A stretch of DNA of 39,700 nt from the NCBI GenBank assembly GCA_902791425.1, contig CADAVS010000004.1, forward strand, positions 1 to 39,700, written 5' to 3'. Source of the DNA: an uncultured Ruminococcus sp. (GTDB lineage: Bacteria; Bacillota; Clostridia; Monoglobales; Monoglobaceae). Position 1 is the first letter of the stretch. The number at the start of each line of letters is the position of its first letter. Positions 6,073-26,177 of the stretch are shown one piece after another. The notes beneath the pieces were generated by a model. That model had not been told where the DNA came from and searched no databases. It saw nothing but the letters and a program-made list of their open reading frames with translations. A program made the translations under genes and the position numbers.

Positions 6073-8520
6073 TTACCAAATACTTATAACCTTTTCTTCG
6101 GGAATATACATTCCGTCACCCTCTACAACCCCGTACAATCTTTTAAATTCATCAAAGTTCGACAGAACTCTGTTTACTCTGATTTTGTTGGGGGAGTGAA
6201 CATCTGTTTTCAGCATCAGCTTTGTGTATTCATCAGTTGCTTTTATACGCCAGGTCTTTGCGTAGTTTTTAAACATCTTATCAAGCTTGATATGGTCATC
6301 GCCTATCAGGCTGATAATACAAGTCATAGCGGCAATATCTGCAATGTTTTCATTCAACGTCATCTCTCCGTTCACATAGGAATGGTCTATCTTAGCCTCA
6401 TTATATTCCGCAACCACCTTTTCGCACAGCTTAGAAAAGGCTTGCTTGTCCGCGTCTGTCCACCAATCCGACAGATTGCCGTTTTCGTCAAACTGTGCCC
6501 CTGTTCTGTCAAAGGCGTGGCTTATCTCGTGAGCGATAACCGCACCGATACCGCCGAGGTTTTCCGCATACTCTGCACTTGCTTCAAAATACGGAGCTTG
6601 CAATATTCCCGCAGGAATAGTAATGCTGTTTGACAAAACATCATACATTGCATTAACCGTCTGAGGGTACATTCTCCACACTTCTTTTGACGGAATAATG
6701 TCCCCGTCAACCACCATTTTACATTCTTCCGCATAAGCATTTGCATATGCCATACGATATTCCATCAGGCTGCCGCCATCCTCTGTGGAACGCAAAACAA
6801 CATACGTTTTGCAATAATCCTCTATATTATCGGGATACGCTGCATATACCTTTATATTTTTCAGCTTTGTTATAATATTATTTCTTGTCCGAGGCGATAT
6901 GCGTGTGGAGGCTCTGACAATTTTCTCATACTCTTGTATTATCTGCTTTGTCATATCCTCAATAAGCGTCTTTGCGGTTTCGGGGAAGTATTCCTTTATA
7001 TACAAGCTTCCAAGCTCCCAACCCAAAAGCTCCTGAACAATCCCTGTTGCATAATCTGAGGGAATTGCATCTATATCAGCACCATATAATTTATTATAGT
7101 ACCTCTGATACGCTTCAAACATATCCGTTGACAAATACAGTGATGACGAGTCAAGCACAGATGCCTTAAGATATGCTTTTAAGGCATCAAGTTTGTCGTC
7201 TGTAATAATCTGATTTATATGCTTTGCAAGGTTTTCGTCATATACTATGTATTTCTTCGCCTTGCCAACCCCTATTTTATTAAAGTATTCAATAATATCA
7301 AAATTGGTAAATATACCTTTTATTTTCTGTGCGTCATAGACAACATCTTGTTTTGATATATCCGACACTATTGTTTCTGTATTCATTATCTCTGCAAGGT
7401 CTTTGCAAAGCTCTGCTGTATACTCAGCCATTTGTTCTGAATTTTCTTCGCCTGAAATTTCAAACAGCTCTTTTACATATTCTTTATATATCTTTATATG
7501 CTTGTCCGCTCCGTCACCTGTCATCAATGCCTTATCCATTCCCGTATAACAGCCTGCAACAGCAGGAAGGCTCTTGTTTGAGCCATTGACATCTGTATCA
7601 AGCGAAACCTTTATTAGTGTAGAAAAACCATTCTTCTCAAGTTCCGCCATAACGTCAACCAAGTCAGAAGTCTTTTCTGTTGCATCAATTTTATCAAGCA
7701 ACGGCTTTATTGGCTCAATGCCAATCTTGTCTCTATACCCTTGATTTGCCGCCGCAGAATAGACAGATATGATTTTTCGTTCTATAGAATTATCATCAAA
7801 TTCCTCGCCTTTATTATAATATCTTTTGTACAGAGAAAATATAATATCCGTTATTCTCGAGCTTACCGTTTGATTTAATCTGTCTATATCGGACTTGACC
7901 GAAACACCCTCCTCTAAGGTGGTTTTTTTTAGCCAAACAGAATTTATATAGTCATAGTAATCACCCGCAGGCCCCATATATCTGACCACTCTGTCACATA
8001 ATATATTTATCTGCTCGTGAGTCAAAAAGTCACCTGCCCCCAGGGTTCCGTCGCCATAGCCCCTTACAATACCGGCGGCAGCAAGCCTGTCCACCTGCTT
8101 TTCTGCCCATTTTGGCGTATCTGAAAATTTAACATCATACCACTCGGCAAGCTCCACATTGCTAAGCGCACGATTTAATATAGTCAACGCCTCTAAACGT
8201 GTTATGTTAGCCTGGGGCTTTAAGGTATCATCCTCATACCCGCTTATCAATCCCGAGTCCACAGCCGCCGCAACCTTTTCAAGATTTGCATAGGATATCT
8301 TTTCTTTATCCGAAAATTTGTTTAACACCTTTGTGTCGATATTGAATTTCTCTATCCCGACAGCATCAACAAACTTTGCCGCCGCTTGCTCACGTGTTGC
8401 GTACTCCGATTTAACCTTATACTCGCTGTTTATATGAGTATATTCTTTGGCATAAGAAACAGGAGCCGACAGGCACAATAACATCATAATCGTTATAATA
8501 ACAGATACGATGCGTTTCAT
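6073..8520 (-). CDS. SLH-domain M13 (neprilysin/PepO-like) zinc metallopeptidase
   Basis: This secreted oligopeptidase has about 815 residues. A signal peptide covers residues 1-24, ending in S-Y-A. A region of SLH-type repeats (about 35-190) is expected to anchor it to the cell wall. The M13 peptidase part starts near DYYDYINSVWLKK. The catalytic HEISH is at about residues 664-668 and the third zinc ligand Glu in ENIAD near 724; the C-terminal RVNRVLSNFDEF segment is also typical. I chose ATG 8520 because a GGGAG site lies 9 bases upstream; a TTG three codons earlier is too close to it. A promoter is visible at 8580-8608. SLH plus M13 on one chain is an unusual combination. Confidence 0.93.
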   Translation of the reverse strand: MKRIVSVIITIMMLLCLSAPVSYAKEYTHINSEYKVKSEYATREQAAAKFVDAVGIEKFNIDTKVLNKFSDKEKISYANLEKVAAAVDSGLISGYEDDTLKPQANITRLEALTILNRALSNVELAEWYDVKFSDTPKWAEKQVDRLAAAGIVRGYGDGTLGAGDFLTHEQINILCDRVVRYMGPAGDYYDYINSVWLKKTTLEEGVSVKSDIDRLNQTVSSRITDIIFSLYKRYYNKGEEFDDNSIERKIISVYSAAANQGYRDKIGIEPIKPLLDKIDATEKTSDLVDVMAELEKNGFSTLIKVSLDTDVNGSNKSLPAVAGCYTGMDKALMTGDGADKHIKIYKEYVKELFEISGEENSEQMAEYTAELCKDLAEIMNTETIVSDISKQDVVYDAQKIKGIFTNFDIIEYFNKIGVGKAKKYIVYDENLAKHINQIITDDKLDALKAYLKASVLDSSSLYLSTDMFEAYQRYYNKLYGADIDAIPSDYATGIVQELLGWELGSLYIKEYFPETAKTLIEDMTKQIIQEYEKIVRASTRISPRTRNNIITKLKNIKVYAAYPDNIEDYCKTYVVLRSTEDGGSLMEYRMAYANAYAEECKMVVDGDIIPSKEVWRMYPQTVNAMYDVLSNSITIPAGILQAPYFEASAEYAENLGGIGAVIAHEISHAFDRTGAQFDENGNLSDWWTDADKQAFSKLCEKVVAEYNEAKIDHSYVNGEMTLNENIADIAAMTCIISLIGDDHIKLDKMFKNYAKTWRIKATDEYTKLMLKTDVHSPNKIRVNRVLSNFDEFKRLYGVVEGDGMYIPEEKVISIW

Positions 8521-8579
8521 ACCAATCAACTCCCAACCCTATTTGTATTTTATCTGACGAATAAATTTAGCTACATTAT

Positions 8580-25426: not shown

Positions 25427-25534
25427 ATATTTTCCTCCAATTTACAAATTTATTTTACAAAAAGTATTGTTTGCAATATGACAAATTTTATCCAAGAAAA
25501 AAATTGGAAGAAAAAACTTTGGCTCCCTTACGGT

Positions 25535-25637: not shown

Positions 25638-25711
25638 TATTTATTTTGTTTTCTTCTGTATATTCTGCCTTTTATACAAAAAATTATTTTAAAACTTTAG
25701 CAATATGTCAA

Positions 25712-25740
25712 TTGATTTCCGAATTTTTTTGTGCTATTAT
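25712..25740 (+). promoter_or_regulatory. Promoter of the structured plus-strand transcript
   Basis: TTGATT (25712-25717), a 17-base spacer and TATTAT (25735-25740) predict a start near 25747. Confidence 0.65.
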
Positions 25741-25933
25741 TTAAGTGTAAGAAAGAACAGGAGGTAAAGTCCAATGAGAATTTAATCTTGACATCAGATA
25801 AAGAATATCAGCAGTTAATCTGAACATTGTTTTAAAACACGGCGGTGTGACGCTTTATATATATAATAGATACAGAAAGTATCAATAGTAGTATAAGTTC
25901 AGATTAGGAAAAATTTTTATCTGAAGGTCAGTA

Positions 25934-26074
25934 TTGAGAAATCCTTTTGCCGGAGAAATTAATATCACAAACATAGAGCGGTTCTCCTTAGAGAAAATAG
26001 AAAGATGGTGTTTTGAAAAGGGATATGTAAATCAGAGCAAAGGGAAATCAATAGAAAGAGAGGTAAACAATTGA
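25934..26074 (+). CDS. Possible 46-residue protein with TTG start
   Basis: TTG 25934 follows a GAAGG site (25923-25927) by 6 bases and opens a frame of 46 codons. The product is polar and helix-prone, with an IERFSLEKIERWCFEKGY segment and a basic, Glu/Lys-rich C-terminus. The ribosome site partly lies in the 3' arm of the stems formed by the upstream RNA, so translation could be controlled by folding. No family is recognised and it may be the last legible part of a broken gene. Confidence 0.3.
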   Translation: MRNPFAGEINITNIERFSLEKIERWCFEKGYVNQSKGKSIEREVNN

Positions 26075-26099
26075 TGTTAGATAATAAGAGTGAGCAGAG

Positions 26100-26149
26100 A
26101 TGACCCTTGGTTGTAGGTGTTGATACAATCAAGGGTCATTTCTTTTTTT
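26100..26149 (+). terminator. Strong intrinsic terminator of the plus-strand transcript
   Basis: A 16-bp stem with one G-T pair (26100-26115 with 26124-26139), an 8-base loop and a T-rich tail to 26149. No T-run follows in the minus direction, so it belongs to the plus-strand transcript. Confidence 0.9.
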
Positions 26150-26177
26150 ATGCCATAAATTCAATATTAATTATATC

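Follow-up and report, generated by a model that had tools for sequence, protein, structure and literature searches.

The window analysed here, a stretch of 39,700 nucleotides from an uncultured Ruminococcus sp., contains at 25747-26149 of the plus strand what is almost certainly a real, conserved RNA gene, and both the existence of this RNA and its architecture are near certain. The RNA is about 400 nt long, with a 5' end estimated to lie about 7 nt past the -10 element of its promoter, it is conserved in relatives, and it is most likely a free-standing, regulatory RNA gene of a new family. In the reading that we propose, this regulatory RNA is transcribed independently and keeps ribosomes at both of its ends; to this mechanism, taken as a whole, we assign a probability of roughly 0.45.

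A sequence-only reading of this locus had suggested a novel regulatory RNA bounded by a promoter and a terminator of its own, and the suggestion is supported as far as sequence can show. The 403-nt RNA has a predicted folding energy of -99 kcal/mol, compared with -71.2 +/- 5.0 kcal/mol in dinucleotide shuffles (z = -5.55, with none of 100 shuffles as low), and no protein gene runs across the interval in the window. The Rfam scan that had been recommended returned no family: at the gathering cut-off, Rfam 15 gave no match at the window RNA or at 15 other carrier loci, and permissive searches gave chance-level matches alone at the RNA, so that known RNA families were rejected. The tmRNA was rejected as well, given that ARAGORN found none in the window and that the tmRNA of this genome is located at G000:C97. 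Beyond the elements described in the sequence-only reading, we identified a second Shine-Dalgarno sequence followed by a 9-codon ORF, a hairpin at 25837-25853 with an R-Y contact, two further helices (P4 and P5) and two boxes upstream of the promoter. Elsewhere in the window, at 6073-8529 of the minus strand, there is a gene for an M13-family peptidase with S-layer homology domains, likely a cell-surface protease.

A DNA search of 60 relatives found one homologue with 83% identity (in genome G001); other genera and families gave shorter matches, which were strongest toward the 3' end, and these blocks are common to otherwise unrelated intergenic regions. When a degenerate pattern of the 3' block was scanned over 84,980 species, each represented by one genome, 106 stretches were retrieved, corresponding to 108 distinct copies including that of the window. 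The titles of the carrier records name Oscillospiraceae, Clostridia, Faecousia, Pseudoflavonifractor and similar groups, mostly metagenome bins and mostly gut bacteria. A covariance model of the 3' block (R1) detected the RNA in 14 of the 51 genomes of the window's order and in 20 of 391 genomes of a class-wide sample, usually in one or two copies each. Most carriers in the class sample are less than 90% complete (they make up 6 of the 317 genomes that are at least 90% complete and 14 of the 74 others), perhaps because the carrier lineages are known solely from metagenome bins.

The promoter that had been read from the window, with a -35 element TTGATT (25712-25717), a 17-nt spacer and a TG-extended -10 element TATTAT (25735-25740) on the plus strand, is present at its place and has conserved counterparts in relatives, the TTG of the -35 element being kept in about 90 of 91 copies. 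Taken alone, the window promoter matches the consensus at only 9 of 12 positions. Upstream of it, within 25660-25711, there are two boxes, box 1 (TTCTGCCTTTTATACAAAA, about 25662-25683) and box 2 (about 25690-25711), which recur in 91 copies. The -35 element, the usually TG-extended -10 element and the two boxes occur at near-fixed spacing in the tabulated copies (91 for the boxes), and the promoter region as a whole is conserved over about 90 bp. Conservation so far upstream points to a dedicated regulator, for which the boxes are probable binding sites, and the promoter itself looks like a regulated one of the sigma-A type. A sequence-only promoter model (R2), built on an alignment of 55 sequences, recovers the window promoter at an E value of 2.7e-13; in ten carrier genomes the promoters of the RNAs scored between 4e-11 and 1.5e-17, and other matches at 6e-7 or weaker. 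Searching for co-regulated genes with this model yielded, besides the RNAs, just these much weaker matches, and the four that were inspected are not RNAs of the family. On the minus strand, 25711-25683 carries an 11 of 12 promoter match (TTGACA-17-AATAAT) directed toward spoVT, which overlaps the upstream box of the RNA and is apparently not conserved in relatives.

The two perfect nested stems of 9 and 10 bp that had been noted are both exact in the window: helix P1 pairs TCAGATAAA (25794-25802) with TTTATCTGA (25916-25924), and within it helix P2 pairs TAATCTGAAC (25816-25825) with GTTCAGATTA (25897-25906). Because both helices are too variable to be aligned, they were tested jointly, by comparing the native pairing energy with that obtained when the arms were re-dealt among relatives; the native mean was -26.6 kcal/mol against -16.3 +/- 0.8 kcal/mol, and none of 20000 re-dealings was as good. 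A switch between this nested fold and two local hairpins had also been postulated, and here the comparison speaks against it: all the local folding of both sides taken together is weaker than the nested pairing in 27 of 30 relatives (-17.3 versus -29.1 kcal/mol in the window), and the TCAGAT/ATCTGA arms that the switch needs are not retained in relatives. Within the same core there is a hairpin, P3 (ACACGGCGGTGT), which together with its downstream contact spans 25837-25853, bases 25842-25844 (RCG) contacting 25851-25853 (CGY), possibly as a small pseudoknot, and which is followed by an ATATA(G)A motif. Between the hairpin CACGRCGGTG and the 3' CGY, the R-Y pair covaries in 29 copies (G-C in 19, A-T in 9 and A-C in 1). 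Helix P4 (25942-25950 with 26037-26045), which was also predicted blind, has two-sided changes in 8 of 9 pairs, with 93.2% of cells paired in 31 sequences, and the hairpin P5 enclosed by it (TTCTC-CTTA-GAGAA, 25982-25995) has two-sided changes in 3 of 5 pairs in 31 sequences; the values observed for P4 and P5 were reached by none of 500 shuffles. The homologues do covary, as the sequence-only reading had asked to be checked, and this covariation shows the predicted nested core to be conserved. P1 to P3 are present in the window's subfamily, and many other copies, in Faecousia and its relatives, keep the two ends and a P5-like hairpin alone, with differing middles.

At the 5' end, the Shine-Dalgarno sequence and three-codon start-stop frame seen earlier (AGGAGG at 25759-25764 and ATG AGA ATT TAA, M-R-I-stop, at 25774-25785; ORF1) are not only present in the window, where AGGAGG lies about 12 nt from the estimated RNA start, but are a conserved feature of the family, and in many relatives the distance to the RNA start is shorter. 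When the start of ORF1 is assigned to whichever ATG comes first at the expected spacing from the promoter (a rule that in about three tandem copies may pick the neighbour's ORF1), a stop is found 2 or 3 codons away in 79 of 83 copies, exactly 3 in 74 of them, compared with 90 of 398 other ATGs in the same RNAs. The inner codons vary and the stop may be TAA, TGA or TAG; in Vescimonas, for instance, ORF1 reads ATG ACC TAA. ORF1 is not indispensable, since 15 of 98 copies with a recognised promoter have no ATG at this position, several of which keep the Shine-Dalgarno sequence and one of which has TTG.

At the 3' end, the window carries a second Shine-Dalgarno sequence (GAAAGAGAGG, 26054-26063) and the 9-codon ORF2 (26074-26103, MLDNKSEQR-stop), which correspond to a 3' block shared across the family, a Shine-Dalgarno sequence and then ATG TTA GAT nnn AAG AGT GAA CAG AAA TGA, leading directly into the terminator. 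The peptide MLD[ITN]K[SN]EQ[KR] is encoded in nearly all of 121 copies, nearly always with a length of 8 or 9 codons, although the pattern used for the scan itself prescribed parts of codons 1-3 and 5-8, so that some of their conservation is built into the search. It placed no such condition on codon 4, codon 9, the stop, the terminator, ORF1, the promoter or the core. Copies retrieved by DNA similarity alone agree with this consensus (MLDTKNNR, MLDIKSVRK, MLDINNEQK). The stop is TGA in 93 copies, TAA in 26 and TAG in Vescimonas, where the opposite arm of the terminator stem is altered to match. One copy (L070) has changed the usual stop to CAA and has a new TAA one codon earlier, and another (L153) has lost the stop.

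The intrinsic terminator that had been described is confirmed, with a stem of 17 rather than 16 bp (26097-26113 with 26126-26142) followed by a T run ending at 26149. In 46 sequences, two-sided changes occur in 14 of 17 pairs and 99.7% of cells are paired, in a set pre-selected for 9 of the 10 outer pairs; 106 of 108 copies passed this selection and the other two are cut by a contig end. The first base of the 5' arm of the stem is the third base of ORF2 codon 8, and the arm includes the stop codon, which is located inside the terminator stem in all copies with a complete terminator. With the usual ribosome footprint, which extends about 15 nt past the first base of the P-site codon, a ribosome at the ORF2 stop would extend to about 26113, where the terminator 5' arm ends. 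Since the polymerase outruns the ribosomes in Firmicutes, it may be quite usual there for terminators to lie near stop codons or to overlap them, and for this reason the overlap is only suggestive. The conservation of stops in ORF1 while its inner codons vary, and of start, length and stop in ORF2 with any of TGA, TAA and TAG, indicates selection for translation signals, as does the substitute stop of L070; the comparison shows that the putative translation signals at both ends of the RNA are under selection.

In the mechanism that we propose, the sigma-A-type promoter would give rise to an RNA of about 400 nt ending at its own terminator, as its sequence and conservation indicate. A ribosome bound at the strong 5' Shine-Dalgarno sequence would read Met and one or two codons, stop, and might restart, and this cycling on ORF1 would keep the 5' end occupied much of the time. 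With such a ribosome in place, RNase J should be unable to degrade the RNA from its 5' end, a protection known from STAB-SD leaders (PMC3997798). Any action on a target or protein probably resides in the folded core. A second ribosome would read ORF2 and, when paused at its stop, would by the geometry of the sequence cover roughly all of the terminator 5' arm; occupancy of ORF2 and formation of the 3' hairpin should therefore be mutually exclusive. Ribosomes at both ends would probably protect the RNA and tie it to translation, and its stability and activity would follow ribosome availability. It is a tentative suggestion that the RNA represents a new class among bacterial RNAs, in which two mini-ORFs bracket a core, ribosomes are parked at the 5' end and on the terminator, the read-out is ribosome availability, and a dedicated transcription factor binds the upstream boxes.

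The conservation of ORF2 can also be taken to mean that the RNA serves mainly as an mRNA. In that case the 9-residue peptide MLDxKSEQK would be an effector or signal inside the cell, and its translation would be controlled by the long leader and the start-stop ORF. We regard this as possible but rather unlikely. The peptide, its Shine-Dalgarno sequence, its length and its stop are strongly conserved across families of Clostridia, as it would predict, but the changes within ORF2 are not mainly silent (I/T/N at codon 4 and S/N at codon 6), and certain silent changes are missing altogether, GAT being fixed at codon 3, which argues that a constraint on the RNA itself also acts. Moreover, the 9 residues include no signal sequence or hydrophobic stretch, and the folded leader, which measures about 100 to 460 nt and in some copies more, is large for such a product.

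This constraint at the nucleotide level inside ORF2 is what would be expected of an untranslated base-pairing sRNA, in which the purine-rich conserved ends would be pairing or protein-binding sites that resemble translation signals, and like many sRNAs the RNA is folded, stand-alone and terminator-bearing. That possibility seems improbable, because both ORFs keep their stops in differing letters (TGA, TAA and TAG), and because the start and stop of ORF1 are constant while its inner codons vary freely.

The position of the ORF2 stop in the terminator stem and the presence of short ORFs, typical of attenuator leaders, would also fit a cis-acting, translation-sensitive attenuator, in which slow or stalled ribosomes on the mini-ORFs prevent termination and allow readthrough into the next gene. 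We consider this very unlikely given the gene context: of 91 loci, 43 have their next downstream gene on the same strand and 48 on the opposite one, this gene is not shared between loci, and in the window it is convergent. Neighbour-ORF clustering revealed no recurrent partner at a fixed place, save shared loci inside subclades. The random downstream orientation and the absence of a shared neighbour indicate that the RNA is not the leader of a gene, and a cis-acting leader was rejected on gene orientation; together with the conserved promoter and terminator, they point to an independent unit. The vmlR leader (PMC9226507) is an example of a ribosome-mediated attenuator, and it resembles our RNA in its short ORFs and intrinsic terminator; attenuators and riboswitch leaders lie upstream of, and codirectional with, the gene that they regulate, whereas the RNA described here has neither a conserved downstream gene nor a preferred orientation. 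Genes for MATE-family-like transporters occur at most 4.5 kb from 12 of the loci, at varying distance and strand, some of these loci being orthologous and the family a common one. In two genomes, Gut-1 RNAs (RF01706) lie close to the RNA and adjoin tRNA genes (L004 1803-1877 and L006 779-850), probably a coincidence of an RNA-rich locus.

The distribution of the RNA is patchy, and in other genera it is found at other loci. In the sibling species G004 the flanking genes are in the same order and have 98-99% protein identity, but the DNA that replaces window positions 25517 to about 26171 (L225, G004:C8:28400-30000) is unrelated, about 570 bp long and apparently contains internal repeats, indicating that the RNA is an accessory gene that was gained or replaced at this site. 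Five loci (L050, L055, L087, L130 and L133) have two or three tandem copies that all point the same way within 0.4-2.4 kb; their ends are conserved and their middles differ. These features could suggest a selfish or cassette-like element, whose RNA would serve its own maintenance; such an origin is hardly likely, considering that there is no associated protein gene or recurrent neighbour and that loci shared in subclades (on the mnmG side in six, on the tilS/rdgB side in four) suggest vertical inheritance there. A phage or plasmid element is likewise not supported: no copy was found in IMG/VR viral contigs or in phage collections, and of 72,556 plasmid records just one has a copy, that of an 860-kb replicon from Vescimonas fastidiosa MM35 that carries hemW and an EF-G gene. 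Finally, a weak reading frame across 25820-26071 is broken by stops, but a decayed protein gene with chance structure can be practically dismissed and a pseudogene was rejected, since relatives show no intact homologue, including the gene of about 100 residues that had been envisaged as a counter-indication, the nearest one likewise has stops, and covariation and conserved ends extend across several families.

Among known systems, type I toxin-antitoxin loci do not fit, as there is no hydrophobic membrane peptide of about 20-60 residues, the peptides being 2-3 and 8-9 residues long and the longer one hydrophilic. Dual-function sRNAs with an internal small ORF include RNAIII/hld, SgrS/SgrT and SR1, and the known ones encode longer peptides. 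Like them, our RNA is structured and free-standing, has a promoter and a terminator of its own, as deduced from sequence and conservation, and contains a short ORF with a Shine-Dalgarno sequence; comparative evidence for translation is strong at ORF1 and ORF2. It differs in that its ORFs, of which there are two, are much shorter (usually 3 and 9 codons), are placed at both ends and are its most conserved parts. In the STAB-SD leaders of Firmicutes mRNAs, such as cryIIIA and ermC, a Shine-Dalgarno sequence mediates protection of the 5' end (PMC3997798). The strong Shine-Dalgarno sequence near the 5' end, expected to block 5'-to-3' decay, is also found here, but STAB-SD leaders protect protein-coding mRNAs, whereas our RNA has a start-stop ORF in addition and no protein gene behind it. 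Short ORFs of this kind are known as minigenes, lambda bar being one of them. Mini-ORFs with strong ribosome sites in axe-txe and LEE4 act on RNA stability (PMC8708949). All three share with our RNA ORFs of two to six codons, strong ribosome sites and mostly UAA stops, but minigenes act in cis on a following gene, absent here, or are toxic via peptidyl-tRNA loss. The odc1 motif also combines RNA structure with a conserved peptide, of 11 residues in its case and about ten in both, but it precedes a protein gene and overlaps its start (PMC8632094), whereas our RNA is free-standing. A search of open-licence papers turned up neither the peptide nor an RNA of this type. The RNA probably works like a dual-function sRNA with STAB-SD-like ends, and is a member of none of the RNA families compared here.

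A structured RNA gene that recurs in several families of Clostridia, is absent from Rfam, and has two tiny ORFs rather than its fold as its most conserved parts is unusual, and makes a promising candidate for a ribosome-engaging regulatory RNA of a new kind. The annotation of gut genomes gains a family that can be searched with the RNA model R1 and the promoter model R2. Since Vescimonas fastidiosa MM35 and Pseudoflavonifractor sp. MSJ-30, two of the carriers, are named strains instead of metagenome bins, expression and ribosome occupancy can be tested directly. The family thus offers a natural system for asking whether ribosomes on start-stop ORFs act as RNA caps or sensors in Firmicutes.
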